A stretch of 64,000 bases of DNA from Sphingobacterium wenxiniae (GCF_900116225.1 NZ_FOZZ01000004.1:1-64000), one strand, 5' to 3'. Shown: positions 30,062 to 44,661, numbered from the stretch's first letter. Notes: generated by a model not told the origin, from the letters alone. Numbers and translations are program-made.

Positions 30062-30286
30062 TTATTCTTCCTCGCTTATCAACTGTAGGTGACCATATAG
30101 TTTATTAAGCAGCTCACATGGGTTCGCATCAATCGCTTTTGCAATAAGATATAATTCTTCTGCCCTCAAATGCGATGACGCATTCAATGTGAGTTCGTTT
30201 ATACGGGCTTTACTGAGCCCTGTTCGCCTAGCTACCATAGACTTATTTACCGATCGCTTTGCTAAAAATTCACCTAACGCTGTCAT
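30062..30286 (-). CDS. Small XRE-type (Cro/C1) DNA-binding regulator
   Basis: 74 residues, essentially one helix-turn-helix domain: FLAKRSVNKSMVARRTGLSKARINELTLN with the second half ELYLIAKAIDANPCELLNKLYG. It is divergent from the HEPN-type gene at 30419, and the 133 bp between them hold two direct repeats that could be its operator. Similar small XRE proteins accompany toxin-antitoxin and defence genes. Its role as regulator of the locus is inferred from position. Confidence 0.8.
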   Translation of the reverse strand: MTALGEFLAKRSVNKSMVARRTGLSKARINELTLNASSHLRAEELYLIAKAIDANPCELLNKLYGHLQLISEEE

Positions 30287-30322
30287 ATTTTCTATCCAAT
30301 AGTTTGCTTAAAACTACTGAAC

Positions 30323-30386
30323 GTATAGAAAAAATGTACAAATAATTTTTTTATTGAAAGTTAATCAATACATTTGTATAGAAAAA
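30323..30386. promoter_or_regulatory. Direct repeats GTATAGAAAAA and -7 box between the divergent XRE and HEPN-type genes
   Basis: The 11-bp sequence GTATAGAAAAA occurs at 30323-30333 and again at 30376-30386, 53 bp apart, about five helical turns. TACATTTG at 30369-30376 matches the -7 box on the plus strand and overlaps the second repeat by one base. Binding of the XRE protein to the repeats would cover this promoter; that is inference. Confidence 0.45.
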
Positions 30387-30418
30387 CCATACAATTAATA
30401 ATTTTTATAAATCGAATT

Positions 30419-32209
30419 ATGGTAATAGATAAACAACTTTTAGTAGCACGGCTGGTTCAACGAATGGACTTGGATCGCATTTTTCTCTTTTCGTACTCTT
30501 TTTTAGGAAACTATCATCAGCACTTGATTTTGGTAATGAAACCAGAAGATGGTATTTCCCCGAAGGTGATGAAACCTGTTATCGAGCTTTGCCTCATTGA
30601 TATGGATAATTTATCTTTTGAACTGATCCCGTTTGGGGAATGGCGTAACAAAGTTCGCCATGGGGGATTGTATTATGCATACGCTTCAATACCTAAACAT
30701 GAAATATATCGATCGCCCCGAAAGATGACAAAATCGCTTACCGCTAATGAGATTGGTGGTGTTATCGAATTGGCCAATCAATGGCAAATGAAGATCAAAA
30801 AAGAAGGGGAGGAATTTCGAGAGGGGGCATTGAAGTTTGCTGAACATGGTAATTATCTGAAAGCCGCCTTTATGGTGCACCAGAGTCTAGAGTCTTTTTT
30901 GCGTTTGCCTCAGGCTATGATACAGGGAAACACGAATAATCAGCACAACTTGGAGAACAGAATGCGGACGCTAAGCACCCATATACCTGCTTTCAAAACG
31001 GTTTTGTTGGGCGAAGCTTTTATGGATATAGAAACATTTCGACTGCTTGACAAGGGCTATCACGCCGTGAAGCAGCATAGGGATTTGGAGATAACCGCTT
31101 TCGATGCTTCTTATCTGTACGATAAGTGCTGTGAGATATCCAAAGCCATCGAAATACTGTATCAGTTTTTTCTAGACGCGTTGAAGACAGAACAGCAGAT
31201 CCGCTTGGAACAGGCCGCACAACAGGCGCAGATAGCAGAAGAAAAGAAGAAGGTAAAATCCATCAATACAGATGGAGGTGGCACCACACATATAAGGAGC
31301 GAAGATTTTTCCGGTTTTCCTTGGCCGCAACAATACAAGGATGACGTCCATGCATTGTTAGATAAGATTAAAGGGAATCATAATCCGGAACAGATTACGA
31401 TGCTGAATTACCATACCGGTGGTTTTTCGGGAAGCAGTCTTTTCCAATCAGAAACAAGTGAAGAATCGGGTGTGAAGGTAGAGCTTTATCTCGTGGTTCT
31501 GATGAAGAACACGGGGCCTTTTACCTTTAAGACCATGCAGGTCGGCATGGCCCGTGCGATGGTGGTTTTCCTAGACCTCCCGTATGTAGAAAAAGGCTTG
31601 GCTGAAGGGAACAGATTTGTGCATACTATGTGGACAAAAGGACATGTGCTACGTCGGAAATCCACTTTTAAACCTTCTTTTGATTTAGGGGATATCGACT
31701 GGAAACAGGAATGGGAACGTGCGGATAAGCTATGGAAAAGCGGTAAAGCTGTCATGGATAATTTAATCAGCACGGTTAGAGGTGCACAACCTCTTTTTGC
31801 TGATACAGGAATTTTATTGCTACGTAATATTATAGAGATTGGCATTCACAGCTTTTTACGGGTGGCATCAGGGTACTTGCCGAAAGCCAAGAATCTGGAT
31901 GAACTGATGGATTGGACACGGGTGGTCGGCGGACAGGTAGTGGACTACTTGTTAGATGAAAGCGGGCTTCGAGGTCAAATGCTGCACCTCATGCTTCATC
32001 CCAAAACACTGTGGTGGAATCCAGATTTACTGGATTCTTTGGAAGAAATAACACCCGATTTTTATCGCCTACAGGCAGAGAAATTGGCTGATCGGTTTGA
32101 TCGGCTCTGCTTTGATGCTATTGAAAAAATTAAAAAGCAGGCAATCAGCGCAACCGAGCTTGATTCCCTGTTACCTTCGGCAATGGAGGCTGCGCAAGAT
32201 AATGGTTAA
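30419..32209 (+). CDS. Dual (nucleotidyltransferase-like + HEPN-like) protein, locus A
   Basis: About 596 residues from ATG 30419; an upstream TTG in frame overlaps the -7 box and is unlikely. I read it as two tandem units. Unit 1: residues ~1-100 are a beta-rich segment placed like the NTase domain of Bacteroidota NTase-HEPN proteins, but without the GS...D catalytic motif. Residues ~135-255 are a HEPN-like helical domain (YLKAAFMVHQSLESFLR, then FRLLDKGYHAVKQHRDLEI). A Gln/Glu/Lys-rich coil (255-285) leads to unit 2 (~305-425 and ~430-575). A candidate R-x4-H (RTLSTH, ~183-188) is the only HEPN RNase-type motif. Function unknown. Confidence 0.7.
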   Translation: MVIDKQLLVARLVQRMDLDRIFLFSYSFLGNYHQHLILVMKPEDGISPKVMKPVIELCLIDMDNLSFELIPFGEWRNKVRHGGLYYAYASIPKHEIYRSPRKMTKSLTANEIGGVIELANQWQMKIKKEGEEFREGALKFAEHGNYLKAAFMVHQSLESFLRLPQAMIQGNTNNQHNLENRMRTLSTHIPAFKTVLLGEAFMDIETFRLLDKGYHAVKQHRDLEITAFDASYLYDKCCEISKAIEILYQFFLDALKTEQQIRLEQAAQQAQIAEEKKKVKSINTDGGGTTHIRSEDFSGFPWPQQYKDDVHALLDKIKGNHNPEQITMLNYHTGGFSGSSLFQSETSEESGVKVELYLVVLMKNTGPFTFKTMQVGMARAMVVFLDLPYVEKGLAEGNRFVHTMWTKGHVLRRKSTFKPSFDLGDIDWKQEWERADKLWKSGKAVMDNLISTVRGAQPLFADTGILLLRNIIEIGIHSFLRVASGYLPKAKNLDELMDWTRVVGGQVVDYLLDESGLRGQMLHLMLHPKTLWWNPDLLDSLEEITPDFYRLQAEKLADRFDRLCFDAIEKIKKQAISATELDSLLPSAMEAAQDNG

Positions 32210-32224
32210 AAAGCTATCCAAATA

Positions 32225-32375
32225 AAAGTCCGCAGGAGGCCCGTATTCTCACGGTATCTGGCGCGGTGCTCCTGTCGGACTTACATATGGAACTAAACAA
32301 ACAGAAAGCTACCAGCTGGGCAGGTCCTTCGGAGCCCAAGGTGCCCACGCGGGTACGCTTTTAAAAACCGAAAAA
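32225..32375 (+). other. Structured intergenic segment before the SNF2 gene
   Basis: Two strong predicted hairpins: AAGTCCGCAGGAG pairs with CTCCTGTCGGACTT (32229-32286 region), and TGGGCA pairs with TGCCCA around an inner TCC-TTC-GGA stem further on. The stretch is also open in frame with the helicase gene from a TAA upstream, but contains no ATG, GTG or TTG start. It may be an RNA leader or a fragment of a lost coding region. I cannot tell which. Confidence 0.4.
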
Positions 32376-35300
32376 ATGGAAAACAAAGAATTGATAACCT
32401 CCGAAACGGAGGCAAAAGCTACGGCTTTGCCTAAACGCAAAGCTGACGAACCCTATTTGATCCCATGGGAGGGTGGAGAACCTTTTAAATGTTCCAAGGA
32501 GTACGTGCTTCAATTTTATAAAGGACGGAAAAAGGTGAAGAACTCGGTATTCTCCGGAAAATTCAATGATTTTTACTCCTTTGATGAGTACAGTATTTCC
32601 GTTAGAGAAAAAGGCGAGGGAAAATACACGCTGTTTCTTTCGTTGACCAAAACACATCTATCGATTCGATGTAGTTGTGCAAAGCAAGCGGAAGCTTTGT
32701 GTGAACATGCTGCTGCAGTGCTTTACGACAAGATACCGTCTCACAAATCTTTCTATTTTAAAGGCTTATATAATGAAGATCTGTTAGCACTATCACAAAA
32801 GTTTCGTTCGATGCTGAGCATTCATCTGGAAGCAAGTTGGAATACACTGGAATTACAGTTGCAGAATAATTCAACTTTTGGACGTCTCTACAACTTTAGT
32901 ATAACCGATGGATATGATGAGGACGTATGGTCATATTGCCCCTTGCCTTATCGCAACATGCATTTTCCCGCTTCAAAATTCGAAGACGTAGAATTCTTGG
33001 TTATCACAGATGGCTTATACTGTGGTCTTCCTTATGTTTTGCCCTACATGGAAAAAAACAAACAAGGTCGTAATCTGTCAAAAAGTTATCTGTTTTATGA
33101 AGGAGAAGAACCGGAGTTATTGTCTCCGCATGACCTATTTAAAGAGCGTATCTGCAAAAACATATTGGAGATCGCCAATAATGACGAGTATCAAATAGAC
33201 GGCATACCTCTAGACGGGGATTCCAATCGTCATGACCATAGCAAGGCATTAGGGATATTACGAGAATGGCGTACGCTTATCTCGTCACTAAAAGACAATG
33301 AAACATTGTGCTTTACCGAACTTTGGGGATATACCTACACCCCCTACCGGGCAAAACTAAAAAATGTATATCGCAAAAAGGATACACCTGTGTCCTTAGG
33401 CAATGGAGATGTAAAATTGCAAATCGACGTGGAAGACCATCCTTCTTATCTCCGTCTAACATTCACCCTTTTCTATCAAGAGGAACGTATAGAAACCCCT
33501 CAGTTTTTATCTGACAACCATTGTTTCTTCTTATTAGTCGAAGAGAATCACGTCGTTTTTGTGGACGATCTTGATCTGGAGAAAATCATTCGGGAAGCAC
33601 GGAAGTCGGATTTCATCTTAACCGTCATCGAGCATGATCGAGGGAAGTTCTTGGAAGAAAGTCTTATTCCGCTTTCCCAACGGTATACGATACAAGTCGT
33701 GCTTAAAGGGAAAAGAGCAAATACCATCGTACAGGCTAAAAAGCCGAAGCGGATCGTTGACATTGCTATCAAGGACGAGACGCTTACGGTTCGAGCAAGT
33801 GTTTTTTATGATCGGTTTGGCGAACACCCTTTGGCTCCACATACCAATATGTTGGTAAGGACGAACGAGGATGGGCAGTATGTGTATGCACAACGCCATA
33901 CCGGGGTCGAACAGGAATTTTATGATTTCCTACAGCAACAGCACAAAACTTGGCCAGAACAACAGCACGAAAGTATGTTCTCGTTACCCCTGGATAAGAT
34001 TGACCATACACAATGGCTGTCCCTTTTTTGTGAACGGTGCAAGCAGGAAGGTATCGAATTGCAAATGGATACGATCCAACGGGGATCCTCCTATTATCCG
34101 CATCCCCTGCATTGGGAAGTGAGAAACGTGCAATTTCAGGATAATAAATGTAAGATTTTATTTGCACCCAAATTTCGTAATAAAGTCATTCCACTACCCG
34201 AGTTCGAAAACATGATTACGAAAACGACTGCGGTATATGACTTAGGAAAAAATCAGTATGGTGTTATCCGTTCTATTGATATTGGTCTATTTCGGCCTAT
34301 CTTTCTAAGCGCGAAAATTGACGGCGATTATATAATCCTTAATTCGTTGCAAATGCTCTCTTTCCAGAGCATCCTGGAGCAGATTGACAGCAAGATTGTT
34401 GACGATAGTATACGCGAGCGCCGGGAGCGACTGACTAGACTGGAAGAGATTCCGCAGTTAGCGGTACCTTCATCTGTTCAGGCAACGCTGCGTCCATATC
34501 AGCAGGCGGGGTTCAGTTGGATGGCTTTTCTCAACGAATTCCAATGGGGCGGTTTGTTGGCTGATGATATGGGCTTAGGTAAGACATTACAAGTGATCAC
34601 CCTGCTGGAACATTTTTATCAAGCTCACCCCAGTGCTCCTGCATCGCTGGTGGTTGTACCCAACTCCCTCCTCTTCAATTGGCAGAATGAATACCACAAG
34701 TTCACACCCAACCGAGAGATCATTGTTTACTACGGCATTACCCGTCAAAATAGAACCGATTTTGACAAGGGAGTTATTGTTTTGACGACATACGGCACGC
34801 TTTTATCCGACAGTGATTTCTTCGCCGAAAAATCCTTTTCTTATTTAATTATGGATGAATCCCAGAATGTAAAAAACCGTAATTCTAAACGTTTCGAGAG
34901 TTTAACCCGGATCCAAGCGAAATACAGGATTGCCATGACGGGCACACCAATAGAAAACGGCATCCAGGACATTTTCTCGCAAATGAGTTTGGTTAATCCC
35001 GGTTTTTTCGGAAACTATAGGGCTTTTAATAAGCTGTACAAAGGTGCTACGGATGCAGACACTATGCAAGAAACGCTGAGTAATCTCCAAAAGGTCATAC
35101 AACCGTTTATCTTACGACGTACAAAAAAGCAGGTAGCTTTGGATTTACCCAACAAAACGGAAACAGTTCTACATATAGAAATGATTCCTGCACAACGTAA
35201 GGTATATGAAAAATACCGCAAGTTCTTTCGGAATGAAGTACAGCGTAGTCTAGAAAGTGAAGAACCTGCAAAATCCAAGTTTATAGCTATCGAAGCATTG

Positions 35301-35873
35301 ATCAAACTGAGACAGATCTGTAATTCTCCAAGTTTGCTAAAAGGAGAGACATTCGATAAGAATGCTGTCAAGTTGGATTATATCGATGAGATTCTGGAGG
35401 ATGTAACGCCGGATCATAAGGTATTGTTATTTTCATCATTTACGGGAATGTTGCAGTTAGTGGCTGAACGTATCGAAGAGCGAGGAATAGAATTCGCTTA
35501 TCTTGACGGCAAAATGTCACAGGATAAAAGACAAAATGCTGTACAGGCTTTTCAAGAAAGGGAGAGTTGCCGTATTTTTCTGATCAGCCTTAAAGCGGGT
35601 GGCACAGGGCTCAACCTTACTGCGGCAGATTATGTGTATATCCTTGATCCGTGGTGGAATCCGGCTGCCGAAGCGCAAGCCATCGACCGTTGCTACCGTA
35701 TTGGTCAGGATAAACATGTGAATGCCTACAAAATGGTGTGCCGAGATAGTGTAGAAGAAAAGATCTTGGCCTTACAGGAGCATAAGAAGAAATTGGCAGA
35801 CGGTCTAATTTTGGATGAGGCCAATATCATGAAGTCGCTTAGTAAGGACGAGTTGTTGAAATTGTTTGAATAA
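32376..35873 (+). CDS. SNF2-family DEAD/DEAH helicase with SWIM zinc finger
   Basis: 1165 residues. A SWIM zinc finger lies at ~99-111 (CSC ... CEH). About 580 residues of beta-rich, family-specific sequence follow. The SNF2 ATPase starts near 705 (LRPYQQAGFSWM; Walker A DDMGLGKT; motif II DESQ in IMDESQNVKN; TGTPIENG). The C-terminal helicase domain spans ~1000-1140 with SLKAGGTGLNLTAADYV and DRCYRIGQ. These are DNA-translocating ATPases; bacterial versions remodel nucleoprotein, and some work in antiphage systems. The motif II variant DESQ is common in SNF2 proteins. It follows the HEPN-type gene by 166 bp on the same strand. Confidence 0.92.
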   Translation: MENKELITSETEAKATALPKRKADEPYLIPWEGGEPFKCSKEYVLQFYKGRKKVKNSVFSGKFNDFYSFDEYSISVREKGEGKYTLFLSLTKTHLSIRCSCAKQAEALCEHAAAVLYDKIPSHKSFYFKGLYNEDLLALSQKFRSMLSIHLEASWNTLELQLQNNSTFGRLYNFSITDGYDEDVWSYCPLPYRNMHFPASKFEDVEFLVITDGLYCGLPYVLPYMEKNKQGRNLSKSYLFYEGEEPELLSPHDLFKERICKNILEIANNDEYQIDGIPLDGDSNRHDHSKALGILREWRTLISSLKDNETLCFTELWGYTYTPYRAKLKNVYRKKDTPVSLGNGDVKLQIDVEDHPSYLRLTFTLFYQEERIETPQFLSDNHCFFLLVEENHVVFVDDLDLEKIIREARKSDFILTVIEHDRGKFLEESLIPLSQRYTIQVVLKGKRANTIVQAKKPKRIVDIAIKDETLTVRASVFYDRFGEHPLAPHTNMLVRTNEDGQYVYAQRHTGVEQEFYDFLQQQHKTWPEQQHESMFSLPLDKIDHTQWLSLFCERCKQEGIELQMDTIQRGSSYYPHPLHWEVRNVQFQDNKCKILFAPKFRNKVIPLPEFENMITKTTAVYDLGKNQYGVIRSIDIGLFRPIFLSAKIDGDYIILNSLQMLSFQSILEQIDSKIVDDSIRERRERLTRLEEIPQLAVPSSVQATLRPYQQAGFSWMAFLNEFQWGGLLADDMGLGKTLQVITLLEHFYQAHPSAPASLVVVPNSLLFNWQNEYHKFTPNREIIVYYGITRQNRTDFDKGVIVLTTYGTLLSDSDFFAEKSFSYLIMDESQNVKNRNSKRFESLTRIQAKYRIAMTGTPIENGIQDIFSQMSLVNPGFFGNYRAFNKLYKGATDADTMQETLSNLQKVIQPFILRRTKKQVALDLPNKTETVLHIEMIPAQRKVYEKYRKFFRNEVQRSLESEEPAKSKFIAIEALIKLRQICNSPSLLKGETFDKNAVKLDYIDEILEDVTPDHKVLLFSSFTGMLQLVAERIEERGIEFAYLDGKMSQDKRQNAVQAFQERESCRIFLISLKAGGTGLNLTAADYVYILDPWWNPAAEAQAIDRCYRIGQDKHVNAYKMVCRDSVEEKILALQEHKKKLADGLILDEANIMKSLSKDELLKLFE

Positions 35874-35888
35874 AACCGGTAAACAAAA

Positions 35889-36270
35889 TCACAACCCTCC
35901 CCTCTTGTATATCTCACTTAATACTAAGGGTAACTTGACAAGAAACTCCCGAATAGCGATATAATAGTGATCCAAAGGGAGTTCCTTCATATTATCTTCG
36001 GTATAATCCCGATGTTGAAGAAGATCGCCCAGCACGGCATACCATTCTTTAAGCGATTTGAAATCGTAAAACGCGCGTAAAGAGTTTGTCGGAAAAATAC
36101 GAGCATCTTCTACTTCAGCGTCAAATACTTCTTGACATTGGTATTGGAATACATAGATTTAGCTTGTCTTTTCTCAAAATAACAAACCGGACTTCAACCA
36201 TCTGTGCAAGGTAGTTATATAATAAATCCATATTCAAACGTGGCACTTGTGCGCATGGATGGATAAATGG
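35889..36270 (-). pseudogene. Frameshifted remnant of a paralogue of the locus B 441-aa protein
   Basis: The minus strand has an open frame of ~90 codons ending at a TGA (35889-35891) that reads FYDFKSLKEWYAVLGDLL ... DHYYIAIREFLVKLPLVLSEIY. This aligns with residues ~125-185 of the protein at 40939 (FFSYKSLAEWYICIDDLW ... DNYFAIKELLLRLAQALYQIY). There is no start codon in this frame. The preceding part (MDLLYNYLAQMVEVRFVILRKD) is in another frame, joined near 36165, so one frameshift splits the gene. The N-terminal remainder and any C-terminal domain are gone. The rest of the gap to hflX (36270-36488) holds nothing I can assign. Confidence 0.7.
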
Positions 36271-36488
36271 AGCTATTAATCAGACAATTGAAATTACTAA
36301 AAGCCTATTTATAGATGAATAAGAAAAAGTTGTAAGTTTTGAAAAGTTAAAAAACACCATCGCTAGATGGCGGAAACTTTACCAATTGGGAATCATCACA
36401 AGCTCTATCAGTATGACAAAGTATCTTCCTTGGCTTACCCATATACTCCACAAGCAGACAATCTCCACTACGTTAGCACAAAAACAAT

Positions 36489-39891: not shown

Positions 39892-40287
39892 CTACCCTTT
39901 CTGAAGCGCAGCGATTTTCTCTTCTAGCAATGCTACCTGTTTTTCCAGAGAGAAGATTGTTTTTTCCTGCGAACGCACTGTCTGCTCCAATGCAGCTATC
40001 AGTTTACGTTCCTCATCAATTTCGTCCGTTCCTTTATAAAAATTATGTTTATCCCGAACTCCGGCAGCCCCCGTTCTATACATATCCCCTTCATCTGCAA
40101 TCAGCCAGGCAGGGCTAATATCATAATGCCTGGCTAAAATAGCCGCTACCGCATCCGAACTCAATGCAGAGGACTTTTGCACACCTTTGAAATTGGCATA
40201 CGACAGCCCTAAATCCTTGAAAAAATCAACCTTATTGATGCCTTTGCTCTCCGCGATAAGCAAAACTCGTTCCTTAATAGTAGACAT
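39892..40287 (-). CDS. XRE-type regulator with C-terminal coiled coil, locus B
   Basis: 131 residues. The N-terminal helix-turn-helix (ERVLLIAESKGINKVDFFKDLGLSYANF ... SSDAVAAILARHYDISPAWL) has the ISPAWLIADEGDMYR tail of Bacteroidota phage-repressor-like proteins. The last ~45 residues are a heptad-rich coiled coil (ERKLIAALEQTVRSQEKTIF) for dimerisation. It is divergent from the locus B operon; the 650-bp gap contains a very long inverted repeat that could be its operator. No peptidase (LexA-like) domain is present. Confidence 0.85.
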   Translation of the reverse strand: MSTIKERVLLIAESKGINKVDFFKDLGLSYANFKGVQKSSALSSDAVAAILARHYDISPAWLIADEGDMYRTGAAGVRDKHNFYKGTDEIDEERKLIAALEQTVRSQEKTIFSLEKQVALLEEKIAALQKG

Positions 40288-40611
40288 TATGCTCTCTTAT
40301 CTGTTTTCAACACAACTATAATTCTTATTACCGGCCAATAGGGTCAATTATTCATGCTGCCTATATGGCTAATTGTCTATTTATATATTGAAAAATAAAC
40401 AAAAGAAAACAAATACCAAATTAATTTCACATTTAACGCAAGATAAACGCACTAACATTTGTCTTTAATAGGATTGTGTTGAGGTAAAGCGGAGGTTTTA
40501 TAGATACAATAAAAACCAATAAGATAATATAAAGACCACATTAGAAAATCAGCACAAAACCCTATAAATCATATATAAAAAGTAAAATTTCAAAATAAGA
40601 AAGAAAATACA

Positions 40612-40659
40612 AAGACATTATTTTGTCTTTTTCGTTTGTATAAGATAAAATAATGTCTT
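40612..40659. promoter_or_regulatory. Long inverted repeat in the XRE-locus B divergent region
   Basis: Perfect 13-bp arms AAGACATTATTTT / AAAATAATGTCTT extend over a G-T mismatch by several more pairs (GTC...GAT), leaving a loop of about 12 nt. The total stem is around 18 bp, unusual for a regulator site in an AT-rich gap. It may be an operator for the XRE protein or fold as RNA. Downstream at 40659-40667 lies TTAAATTTG, which contains the TAAATTTG -7 box on the plus strand. Confidence 0.55.
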
Positions 40660-40740
40660 AAATTTGTTTAATTATTAGCGCATAGCCATTTATATGCTAT
40701 AGAATTTTAGCTATAACAGATAGGCGCATCACGAAGCACT

Positions 40741-40938
40741 ACGATATGGGGACAGATCTCGCCCCATTAAACGACACAAAAACTTTCAGGTAAAGTACTG
40801 GGAGAGTAATGGAAGTAAGATTCCGTTCACCTCGCTCACCTTAGCATAAAATAATAACGGTTACGTTTTGCGGGACTCGTGCTGAACTCGTTGCCCCATA
40901 GCGATAACCATTTCTATAACTTAAAAAAATAATATACA
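40741..40938 (+). other. Leader of the locus B operon with a GGGG/CCCC hairpin
   Basis: ATGGGG (40746-40751) can pair with CCCCAT (40762-40767) nearby or with another CCCCAT at ~40893, an alternative-pairing layout. The sequence is GC-richer than its AT-rich surroundings. It has no open frame of note and ends at the ATG of the 441-aa gene. No known riboswitch is recognised; function unknown. Confidence 0.35.
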
Positions 40939-42264
40939 ATGAAAAAGCAAAAGAAAAAATTAAAAGCAAGGCAGTTCAGGTACCTGACCAAGGCAGACGT
41001 AAAAAACCCTTTGGAGCACCTCTATACTTTCTACGGAGACGAAACGCGCATTGCATACTGGCTAAGAACGATTAACACCCTCATAAACATAGCTGTAGAA
41101 CCCGCAATGTCATCTCCTGCCACTCGGGACAATGGCCATTATGCCCAACGGTTGATTAAACAAATCGAAATTGCCTATGTTATTTTTAAAAAGTGTGGAC
41201 TACCCACGATTGAAACTCCGTTAAATTTCTTCCAAACCCGCAAGGACTATGGTACTTATATCATTGAAGGAGCCTACACCCTTGAAGGAGAAGAGAATCC
41301 TGCACACGAGATCAGTCGGTTCTTTTCCTACAAAAGCTTAGCCGAATGGTACATCTGTATTGACGATTTGTGGGCAAATATGATTGATAAAATCGATCCC
41401 GTAGATGAAATTTTGCGTGACAACTACTTCGCCATAAAAGAATTGCTTTTGCGATTGGCACAAGCGCTATACCAAATATATGAAGAGGATAAATTACCCT
41501 ACACAAAAGAAGGTAAAGACAAACAGGACAAGACCCCCGAAACAGCAAATACAGCTAACAGCAAAGAGGCAATAGAGCCCCTCGGCACACCACTTGTCGA
41601 ACAATCTTCAGAAAAAGAAGAGGAAGAGGACGACAACTTTTATCCCAAAGACCGGGTTACACTTCCTGGATGGCTTGCTCCACAGCGCTATTCAGCCGGT
41701 GCTGTAAAAAACTTTTGCAGTATGGACGACTTATGCAATTGGCGGGAAATCCTTTGGTTTTGGTATCAATCCGTTATTATAAAGGATCTATATTGGTCGG
41801 AGCATAATGAAAAATTGGGCTACTCCGGAGGTGATTTGCTTTTTCACTATTCCACACTTTATAGTTTATTGGAAATGTACTGCTCGCAACTAACCGAAAA
41901 TGGATTGGAAACTCCTGCAGATGTAGCGTCCATATCCATTTTAAACCAAACTTTACGTAGCTCCATAAAGTATAGGGGGCAGATCGAAGTACTTTTTTAC
42001 GTAAACAATCAGGACAAAGAAAAGCCGTTGGATAGCATCCTGTCCACTATCAGCATCTACAGCAAGGCTCAATGGGATAAAATCTTATATGAATGGCTTT
42101 CTTTCGGCTTATCAAAACGCGATATCGACGAGGGAAACTATACCCCGGAAGCATCGCGCATTTATCAATTGTTAATCCGCATTGTAGAGTTAACCTATGT
42201 ATTGGCCGCACAAGCAGAAGAAGAGGAAAAGGACGACTGCGCAGAAACTCCAGAAGAGAATTAA
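40939..42264 (+). CDS. Helical-repeat protein of unknown function, partner of the HEPN-type gene (locus B)
   Basis: 441 residues, mainly helical, with no recognised catalytic motif. At least three related segments of the pattern h-xx-F-xxxx-xL-xxW-xxx-h can be aligned: FYGDETRIAYWLRTINTL (~33-50), FFSYKSLAEWYICIDDLW (~128-145) and FCSMDDLCNWREILWFWY (~253-270). An acidic linker (EKEEEEDDNF, ~220-230) separates N- and C-terminal halves. The tail is acidic. It resembles RteC-type Bacteroidota helical proteins only loosely. It precedes the HEPN-type gene by 54 nt and is probably co-transcribed. A remnant of a paralogue lies at 35889, near locus A. Confidence 0.7.
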   Translation: MKKQKKKLKARQFRYLTKADVKNPLEHLYTFYGDETRIAYWLRTINTLINIAVEPAMSSPATRDNGHYAQRLIKQIEIAYVIFKKCGLPTIETPLNFFQTRKDYGTYIIEGAYTLEGEENPAHEISRFFSYKSLAEWYICIDDLWANMIDKIDPVDEILRDNYFAIKELLLRLAQALYQIYEEDKLPYTKEGKDKQDKTPETANTANSKEAIEPLGTPLVEQSSEKEEEEDDNFYPKDRVTLPGWLAPQRYSAGAVKNFCSMDDLCNWREILWFWYQSVIIKDLYWSEHNEKLGYSGGDLLFHYSTLYSLLEMYCSQLTENGLETPADVASISILNQTLRSSIKYRGQIEVLFYVNNQDKEKPLDSILSTISIYSKAQWDKILYEWLSFGLSKRDIDEGNYTPEASRIYQLLIRIVELTYVLAAQAEEEEKDDCAETPEEN

Positions 42265-42318
42265 TTATTGAACAACAAATAACACTGTAACCTTTTCAAC
42301 TTGTAAATACTAAAGATT

Positions 42319-44019
42319 ATGAACACATTACCATCTGATACCCTTACCCTGCTGACAGAGCAGCTTCCCGTTGACGAAATCTTTCAATGGACCTACCAGC
42401 GTAATGGAAAAAAATACAGCATGTTGCACATTCACTTGCAACCAGAACCCGGCATACGGTTCAACGATGCACGTGAAACCTGTGAAAATATTTTGGCGAA
42501 CGAGAAAAATCTGCATTTCACGCTTTATTTCACCAAAGAAATTCAAAAAGAAATAGAGCTTGGGGCTGCACGCTTCTATTTAATTTGTCAGCCGTCCAAT
42601 AGGATCTATCAAAATCCTAACCCAAAATCTGCCATTCAACTACCAGAAATCAGCGCCGCTGATTTATCTCTGCAAGCAACCGCTTATATAAACAAGGAAG
42701 TAGAGAAAATACAGTCCTTTATCAATGGATATAGCTTTTATTTAGTAAATAACAACTGTGCGCATGCCGCTTTTATGCTGCATCAAGCCCTGGAACTTTC
42801 CTGCCGGACAGCCCAAAAATTGCTATCCGGCGACGAAAAGAAGTCCCATTCAATCAAGAGCAACATTGCATTCCTCAAAGTTTTCGACTCCAAGTTAGGA
42901 AAACTTGGCAGTACAACGACCAGAGGAGCAGCATTGGCAAAACTCGATGAATCTTATATCGCCTTTCGTTACGAACAAGACTTTTGCATGGGAAGAGCAC
43001 CGTTGGAATGTTGCTATCAAATCACCTGTAAAGCGCTGGAATGGATAACGAAATATTCAACGATATTTCTGCAAGAAATCCAAAATAAACTCAACAGGCA
43101 ACCCATTGCTCATCAAGAATCTAAAACTCCTCTTAATTATAATCATATAGACATGGAAAACAACACACACACCAACAACAATCCCCGTGAGCTCATCCTC
43201 AATGCCCTACAAGCACTTGGCAAGGTGCATGCTGTATATTGCTTCGCTTACAAAAACGCACTGCAACAAATAACCAACAATCTCCTGTATATCCACCACG
43301 CCCAGCTGGATGTCGAACATTATTACCTCTTTGTCATCATGGGGGAAGCCCCAAAATCCTTGATGGACTTCCAAAACAGCATACAGCAACTTCTGCCAAG
43401 CAGCATCCATATTACCCTCATTGCCGAAAATACAGATCGGGTACAGAAACACCTGAAAGAGGGCGACCTATTCCGATCAAACCTATTACGCTCGGCGGAA
43501 TGTTGGTATCAAGAGCATCATTTTGACTTGGAGAACATCCAAACAGCCGCTCTGGACAAACCCCAGATGAAATGGTTATGGGAAAAACGATATAACAACG
43601 CCCTACAGCTGGCTCCTCCTTGGACAGGAGAAGCAGAAAGACCACTAAATGAAGCAACCTGTTACACACTCAGTTTAGCCATAGAGCAGATTTGTTTAGG
43701 GTTGATACAACACTTTATGCATTATATACCGGACTCCACCCTCCTAAATTATTTAATGAATCTTTGCGATATTATCTGTCCAGAAGGTACTGCCGTCTTT
43801 TTAAGGGATAGCCAGGAAGAGGAAAATACTTTCAACGTCTTGATTAAAGCACAGCAAAAATTCCGGCACTCACCAAACTTTTCAATCAACAGAAAACACA
43901 TCCCGATCCTGTATCAACAAACACAATCCTTTATCAAGCACGCTAATGAAATTATCACAAAAGATTTGCAGGATGAAGAAAAAGAAGAAGCATCTCTTTG
44001 CCGTGAAGAAACGGCATAA
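42319..44019 (+). CDS. Dual (nucleotidyltransferase-like + HEPN-like) protein, locus B
   Basis: 566 residues. Unit 1: ~1-100 is an NTase-like beta-rich segment (FQWTYQRNGKKYSMLHIHL ... ARFYLICQPSNRIYQNP). Residues ~145-250 form a HEPN-like domain with the family pattern CAHAAFMLHQALELSCR and LDESYIAFRYEQDF. A polar linker (~255-290) follows. Unit 2: ~300-405 matches the NTase pattern more closely (KVHAVYCFAYKNALQ ... HYYLFVIMGEAP ... LKEGDLFRSNLLRSA), and ~440-550 is a second HEPN-like domain (SLAIEQICLGLIQHFMHYI ... KAQQKFRHSPNFSIN). No GS...D or R-x4-6-H motif is clear, so catalysis is doubtful. It shares architecture with the locus A protein at 30419. Confidence 0.7.
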   Translation: MNTLPSDTLTLLTEQLPVDEIFQWTYQRNGKKYSMLHIHLQPEPGIRFNDARETCENILANEKNLHFTLYFTKEIQKEIELGAARFYLICQPSNRIYQNPNPKSAIQLPEISAADLSLQATAYINKEVEKIQSFINGYSFYLVNNNCAHAAFMLHQALELSCRTAQKLLSGDEKKSHSIKSNIAFLKVFDSKLGKLGSTTTRGAALAKLDESYIAFRYEQDFCMGRAPLECCYQITCKALEWITKYSTIFLQEIQNKLNRQPIAHQESKTPLNYNHIDMENNTHTNNNPRELILNALQALGKVHAVYCFAYKNALQQITNNLLYIHHAQLDVEHYYLFVIMGEAPKSLMDFQNSIQQLLPSSIHITLIAENTDRVQKHLKEGDLFRSNLLRSAECWYQEHHFDLENIQTAALDKPQMKWLWEKRYNNALQLAPPWTGEAERPLNEATCYTLSLAIEQICLGLIQHFMHYIPDSTLLNYLMNLCDIICPEGTAVFLRDSQEEENTFNVLIKAQQKFRHSPNFSINRKHIPILYQQTQSFIKHANEIITKDLQDEEKEEASLCREETA

Positions 44020-44046
44020 AGAACGTGCACAACCACATCCTCCCAA

Positions 44047-44661
44047 TCAATATACATAAGAGGATACCACAAAAGAATACGGAGACTGTGAGTTTCGGCC
44101 AACAAAACAAACCCGGAACTCATACTCTTCTCTTATAGCAAGATTCTCTATAACACATCGGGATCTACTGCTTAACACCACCTGCCAAGGCTCCCCTTCA
44201 ATCTTTTTCCTATATTCAAACCTATAGACGTACACCTTAGGTGAAGCTTTAACCCTTAGTTTCATTTTCCCTGTGCCTATTTCACCTTCTGCACGGAAAT
44301 CCTCTGGCGTATCGGGATTTCGATTGGCAGAGCTTCTTTTCTTTGAAGGGACGAAACCCGCTGCGAGAATAATCCCCTTATCTCCCTTAGCTACAAAATG
44401 CACATAAGACGAAAGAATTCTCAACAAATTCAACAGGTCTTTCCGCTTCGAGTCACGGATCACAAGCATCCGCTTGTCCCGATAAGCAGCATCTGAACAG
44501 GCATCACTAAACGCACGGATTTCCTTTTTAAAATCCGCCAAACTAGGAACAGGATTTGGGAAAAGACCCTGATTCTTTTCCATCTCAGCTGAAATTATAT
44601 AACAATAGTCCAATAATTCAACATCAGAAATATTATGCGATCGAATAGTAGGTTTCAACAT
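44047..44661 (-). CDS. Fibronectin type III-like protein, unknown function
   Basis: 204 residues, no signal peptide. The N-terminal ~95 residues are helical (FPNPVPSLADFKKEIRAF, KRKDLLNLLRILSSYVHFVAKGD), a pattern seen in Bacteroidota proteins with a fused Fn3 domain. The C-terminal part (~125-200) is Fn3-like (YVYRFEYRK ... NLAIREEYEFRVCFVGRN). It is convergent with the HEPN-type gene and 28 nt from it. Related proteins are common accessory genes; function unknown. Confidence 0.7.
   Translation of the reverse strand: MLKPTIRSHNISDVELLDYCYIISAEMEKNQGLFPNPVPSLADFKKEIRAFSDACSDAAYRDKRMLVIRDSKRKDLLNLLRILSSYVHFVAKGDKGIILAAGFVPSKKRSSANRNPDTPEDFRAEGEIGTGKMKLRVKASPKVYVYRFEYRKKIEGEPWQVVLSSRSRCVIENLAIREEYEFRVCFVGRNSQSPYSFVVSSYVY

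Follow-up and report, generated by a model that had tools for sequence, protein, structure and literature searches.

A probably defence-related three-gene module of Sphingobacteriaceae that pairs a repeat protein with a tandem NTase-like/HEPN protein and exchanges blocks of both between species

We analysed a 64,000-nucleotide stretch of DNA from Sphingobacterium wenxiniae, called here the window. Its positions 39892-44019 hold an Xre-type regulator gene and, divergent from it, the gene of a partner protein that we call PART followed by the gene of a 566-aa protein (Table 1). The four open reading frames of the initial annotation (131 aa on the minus strand, 441 aa and 566 aa on the plus strand, 204 aa on the minus strand) have the coordinates and lengths given in it.

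Table 1. Features of the module and of its 3' neighbour, in window coordinates
Feature	Position	Strand	Remarks
Xre/CI-type regulator, C-terminal coiled coil, 131 aa	39892..40287	-	Divergent from operon; PHROG; orthologues beside PART
Candidate operator: inverted repeat with two 18-nt arms (94% complementary) separated by 12 nt	40612..40659	.	Putative function
Bacteroidota-type promoter of the operon, TTTG-N20-TAAATTTG, overlapped by the inverted repeat	40635..40666	+	Pattern count
PART, 441-aa repeat protein, family not described before	40939..42264	+	Without known fold or family
PART-N, aa 1-190, repeat units A and B	40939..41508	+	Also a stand-alone protein; hhalign
PART-C, aa 250-432, exchangeable cassette made of repeat units C and D	41686..42234	+	C types; hhalign
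Tandem NTase-like/HEPN protein, 566 aa	42319..44019	+	Pfam, AlphaFold2, structure comparison
NTase-like domain 1 (NT1), aa 1-110, degenerate, allelically exchanged	42319..42648	+	Fold vs 2rff; motif counts
HEPN-1, aa 111-262, HEPN-T type	42649..43104	+	PF05168; 4nqf_B; invariant residues
NTase-like domain 2 (NT2), aa 285-410, degenerate, species-phylogeny-like	43171..43548	+	MntA 6m6v; flank correlation
HEPN-2, aa 411-560, His lost, Arg mostly kept	43549..43998	+	8yuf over 419-548; columns 475, 516
Fn3-like protein, 204 aa	44047-44661	-	Sub-cut-off Pfam match

The Xre protein matched the PHROG transcriptional regulators at 6e-5 and had only weak HTH matches among Pfam/PDB profiles; its orthologues, 50-60% identical, adjoin PART in many loci. 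The pattern TTG-N(18-23)-TAnnTT(T/A)G, which follows the Bacteroidota-type promoter consensus, stands ahead of PART in 28 of 39 Xre-PART intergenic regions, where shuffling expects 0.5, and about 65 bp around the inverted repeat are conserved 5' of Xre/PART in L104, L072, L115 and L118. Xre may repress the operon via the inverted repeat over the promoter. The 651-bp Xre-PART gap showed no non-coding RNA in an Rfam scan and no second Xre remnant by tblastn. Between the Xre gene and the promoter (40288-40611) the gap is about 325 bp longer than that of relatives, and pieces of it, about 40-60 bp long, turn up in four further spots of the genome.

PART consists largely of helices, and each of its halves also has a short beta hairpin. 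We found no match at E<=0.07 in Pfam, NCBIfam or PHROG, a weak match only in PADLOC (0.0042), and no fold match in the PDB or in BFVD (viral), where the best Z, 6.0 to vinculin, is not meaningful. The initial annotation had proposed an undescribed helical partner and this holds, as the databases searched contain no known family or fold for it. By profile comparison PART is a four-repeat protein: in hhalign, PART-N aligned with PART-C at 3.2e-7, and among the repeat units A matched D at 1.2e-7, B matched D at 7.6e-6 and A matched C at 6e-5. Many genomes encode the N half alone, as a protein of about 185-260 aa, or have paralogues of 180-260 aa in tandem, as in L118, L121, L124 and L127, and PART-C comes in at least three types carried on similar N halves. 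Furthermore, a PART-C-like protein of 384-391 aa replaces the NTase-HEPN gene in two loci (L113, 7845-9020; L116, 7762-8916), and the genomes with this replacement are those of Parapedobacter composti and Olivibacter domesticus.

Regarding the 566-aa protein, the AlphaFold2 model (29 input sequences; mean pLDDT 82, pTM 0.49) has two successive units, each made of an alpha-beta-beta-alpha-beta part and a helical bundle, and structure comparison gives the order NTase-like, HEPN, NTase-like, HEPN. Since pTM is only 0.49, the relative arrangement of the domains is not to be trusted. Pfam HEPN (PF05168) matched residues 145-243 with 25.7 bits (cut-off 22) and was also matched by all 20 members of a diverse alignment of the family, whose profile reached the HEPN structure 4nqf at 1.8e-17. 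With VIA-align, HEPN-1 superposed on 4nqf_B with Z 18.1 (149 aligned residues, rmsd 2.5) and the HEPN-2 bundle (residues 419-548) on the HEPN toxin 8yuf with Z 10.0; NT2 on the MntA-type antitoxin 6m6v (Z 8.6) and NT1 on 2rff (Z 7.9) are near noise level, with a fitting strand order. Taken alone these two values are modest, and the NTase-like assignment of NT1 and NT2 in the model is likely given the strand order, the HEPN-T domain that follows and which structures matched best. The tandem NTase-like and HEPN fusion that had been read from sequence pattern is therefore confirmed by the predicted structure, and the proposed structure check found both kinds of unit. As an oddity the fusion counts for less than was supposed, because MNT-HEPN fusions in one chain are known in the HEPN-T family PF05168 (PMC3710099); the unusual feature here is its tandem duplication in combination with the partner. 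A scan of GTDB contigs with the single protein detected no relatives, since so divergent a family escapes a pattern built from one sequence; an alignment-based scan did find the family.

The NTase motifs are gone. Among 29 close homologues, neither GS nor a DxD-like string occurs in NT1 (0/29 each), and NT2 has no GS (0/29) and a DxD-like string in two sequences. The canonical Rx4-6H RNase motif is found in none of the 29 in HEPN-1, and in two, scattered, in HEPN-2, where Arg is kept in 26/29 and His is missing at the corresponding place (columns 475 and 516). However, H155, Q156, E159, H177, R217 and Y218 of HEPN-1 do not vary among the 29 close homologues and hardly vary in the wider set. 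Thus, of the loss of catalytic motifs noticed initially, the NTase part stands, whereas the HEPN part is not clear, given that H177 and R217-Y218 are kept in 29/29. Rx4-6H is optional in the HEPN-T family, some proteins of which lack the canonical motif His and carry a conserved His elsewhere that possibly contributes to activity; on the other hand, HEPN domains fused to NTases are typically without catalytic residues and usually thought inactive, and MtlR is a precedent of a non-catalytic HEPN (PMC3710099). Since HEPN-1 keeps the invariant His and the Arg-Tyr of its family, it is possible, from its residues, that it is an RNase.

PART and the NTase-HEPN unit are associated both by operon and by fusion, and they may be in physical contact. 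Among 94 genomes of the genus, 36 of the 39 close homologues of the 566-aa gene are directly preceded, within 3.5 kb and on their own strand, by PART, so the neighbour check proposed with the initial annotation came out in favour of a conserved pairing. Both genes are present in 36 of these genomes, PART only in 12, the HEPN gene only in one and neither in 45 (Fisher p 2e-14, uncorrected for genome relatedness). We also read 40 named loci from Sphingobacterium, Parapedobacter and Olivibacter: Xre and PART are divergently oriented in 38, all but L102, at a contig edge, and L124; a two-unit NTase-HEPN gene follows PART in 28, and a paralogous NTase-HEPN gene adjoins PART in 6 further loci, some with an SNF2 helicase. 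In DW12 (G196) the PART and HEPN genes are on separate contigs, each with its own Xre gene (L066, L067). Moreover, proteins of 505-516 aa in a neighbouring genus (L085, 8248-9765; L086, 7337-8887) combine a PART domain (profile E 5e-18) and one NTase-HEPN unit (3e-23) in a single chain. The module was found only in Sphingobacteriaceae chromosomes, with a patchy presence (51/94 genomes), and PART was present in 6 of 395 genomes sampled across the class, 5 of the 6 from the same family. Phage, plasmid and viral collections gave no match, which suggests a chromosomal module; an origin from a mobile element was thereby rejected, and the mobility of the module is not that of a typical defence island.

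In many Sphingobacterium species the module lies, as in the window, between hflX-lipB-SH3 and other housekeeping genes, and its neighbours are mostly housekeeping genes. This shared site shows that the accessory set is no random insertion. Relatives that are closer, with HflX about 95% identical, have the module on the opposite side of hflX, where the window holds a PART relic (35874-36298, minus strand, between an SNF2 gene and hflX), frame-shifted and with stops, with up to 82% identity over 87 aa to the intact PART genes of relatives. In L138 an MBL gene adjoins lipB and the module is not between them, and Parapedobacter genomes keep the operon without the hflX-lipB flanks. PADLOC system models gave no convincing match to the module genes. 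In L120, an AbiEi/AbiEii anti-phage pair (10360-11852) lies directly 3' of the NTase-HEPN gene; L117 has genes of AbiE-like size, and L103, L105 and L122 have a single-unit NTase-HEPN gene in the AbiE slot. A second related locus in the window (30062-35873) comprises an Xre-like gene (74 aa, minus strand), a 611-aa NTase-HEPN paralogue, 25% identical to the 566-aa protein and with the HEPN-1 Arg-Tyr lost, and a SWIM/SNF2 helicase of 1165 aa. This gene set adjoins an intact Xre-PART pair in L134, L136 and L140. The Fn3-like gene had been counted in the set initially. It matched Pfam Fn3 with 18.4 bits, below the cut-off of 25, and it belongs to a family of 11 copies, 25-39% identical, scattered over the genome; we therefore rejected it as a fourth component, and it is probably unrelated to the module.

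The most unusual property of the module, invisible to the initial annotation, is the blockwise shuffling of PART and the first NTase-HEPN unit. The pairwise comparison of 14 loci sharing one site shows that PART-N, PART-C and this unit recombine blockwise between species, whereas by the same measure the flanks and the second NTase-HEPN unit track species history. Median identities were 98% for HflX, 94% for LipB, 71% for SH3, 67-69% for NT1, HEPN-1, NT2 and HEPN-2, 49% for PART-N and 37% for PART-C. The correlation of pairwise identity with that of the flank SH3 was 0.97 for NT2, 0.45 for NT1, 0.26 for PART-N and -0.05 for PART-C. Individual pairs show the same: L120 and L108 have mostly more than 90% nucleotide identity in the flanks and about 50-60% in PART; L109 and L130 have 99% identity in PART-N and 41% in PART-C; and L103 and L130 have the same PART, with a dS of 3.0 in NT1 against 0.54 in NT2 within one gene pair. 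The dN/dS of the 566-aa gene was 0.04-0.36, which means purifying selection within alleles; positive selection on its residues was thus rejected, and the divergent blocks point to old alleles exchanged blockwise. PART-N correlated with PART-C at r 0.06. A matching of PART and NT1 alleles was not seen, PART-N correlating with NT1 at r 0.09, and this value argues against contact of the variable surfaces of PART and NT1.

Several known systems resemble parts of the module. HEPN/MNT (HepT-MntA) toxin-antitoxin systems share the MNT-like and HEPN folds side by side; here, however, there is one tandem-duplicated chain with the NTase motif lost and Rx4-6H missing, plus PART and an Xre regulator. With its single 566-aa chain and without NTase motifs the module falls outside these systems, and it may nevertheless work in a toxin-antitoxin-like way. 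HEPN-1 is a member of HEPN-T (PF05168/4nqf), being above the cut-off, with Z 18.1 and the alternative conserved His, but our protein stands apart by carrying its NTase-HEPN unit twice in one chain and by having a repeat protein as its dedicated partner. AbiV, an anti-phage HEPN RNase (9bj6/9bj7), shares the HEPN fold with Z 8.4-8.8, values that are not specific for such helical bundles, and has its alternative conserved His where HEPN-T proteins have theirs (PMC3710099). Unlike the 566-aa protein, it is without NTase domains and has another partner. The Hailong protein HalB, an active NTase, was matched by Foldseek (E 3e-3) over the NTase and the helical C-terminal part. The 566-aa protein, by contrast, has no such catalytic residues, and among the neighbours read by eye we noticed no HalA-like gene.

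The three-gene unit is probably an undescribed, defence-related module. What was put forward as a candidate undescribed system keeps its tandem fusion, NTase motif loss, partner and pairing, and gives up a clear HEPN loss, the Fn3-like gene and the novelty of the fusion. Our main reading, to which we give a probability of around 0.45, is a chromosomal, recombinationally diversified HEPN conflict module of Sphingobacteriaceae, most likely acting against phages or mobile elements. The conserved pairing, the fusion and the exchanged blocks fit a conflict module with variable recognition better than a housekeeping enzyme, and the two NTase-like and HEPN units of the fold, the operon kept in Parapedobacter, the AbiE pair of L120, the conserved promoter, the invariant HEPN-1 His and Arg-Tyr and the purifying selection also count for it; the housekeeping neighbours, the lack of a PADLOC system and of a classical Rx4-6H, the missing matches in phage, plasmid and viral collections, the usual inactivity of NTase-fused HEPN domains (PMC3710099) and the PART/NT1 r of 0.09 count against it. 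Another reading is a domesticated, non-catalytic ligand- or RNA-binding regulator, whose NTase-HEPN units and PART would sense a nucleotide or RNA and control a cellular process with no conflict role, the exchange being ordinary homologous recombination at a fast-evolving locus. The lost NTase motifs, the usual inactivity of fused HEPN domains with the MtlR precedent (PMC3710099), the stable site among housekeeping neighbours and the strong purifying selection agree with it. Nevertheless, we hold it to be rather unlikely, as it leaves unexplained the patchy presence, the relic PART copy, and swaps of PART-C and NT1 with saturated synonymous divergence that spare the flanks and NT2.

For a fused HEPN/MNT toxin-antitoxin, in which PART or the NTase-like domains would neutralise a HEPN RNase toxin, speak the operon with its Xre regulator, the HEPN fold like that of HepT toxins (Z about 9-10) and the NTase fold like that of MntA antitoxins; the mechanism of MntA requires an active NTase (PMC7641770), though, and the motif it needs is missing here, PART alleles combine freely with those of NT1 where a toxin and its antitoxin should stay matched, and PART and Xre often occur without the HEPN gene (12 genomes), so we consider it improbable. 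Very improbable is a locus for kin discrimination or polymorphic effectors, in which the PART genes in tandem would form an immunity array: such paralogues, as well as the exchange of variable C parts on constant N parts, recall it, but no secretion domain was recognised by eye near the loci, PART is upstream of the HEPN gene and not after it, and both PART halves vary.

Under the reading as a conflict module, the Xre repressor would keep the operon quiet through the inverted repeat overlapping its promoter, and the 566-aa protein would be the effector or a scaffold. Its two NTase-like domains, having lost the catalytic motifs, may be ligand-binding or autoinhibitory, HEPN-1, with its HEPN-T signature, would be the candidate RNase and HEPN-2 a degenerate regulatory copy. 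PART may be a variable sensor or regulator working in contact with the NTase-HEPN unit, and the block exchange may alter recognition or allow escape from inhibitors encoded by invaders. A narrower form, which we advance only tentatively and think doubtful, is a recombinationally diversified immune locus in which PART and the NTase-HEPN head are interchangeable recognition cassettes before a conserved HEPN tail. If true, exchanging blocks at one constant place on the chromosome would renew recognition specificity, a logic comparable, by analogy, to the swapped target-recognition domains of restriction systems.

A shared operon, a conserved site and a fusion tie an undescribed family of repeat proteins to NTase-HEPN proteins, and the exchange between species is limited to this partner and part of the HEPN protein. 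The module therefore offers a testable case for the working of HEPN proteins whose NTase domains are degenerate, and for whether they have an immune role.
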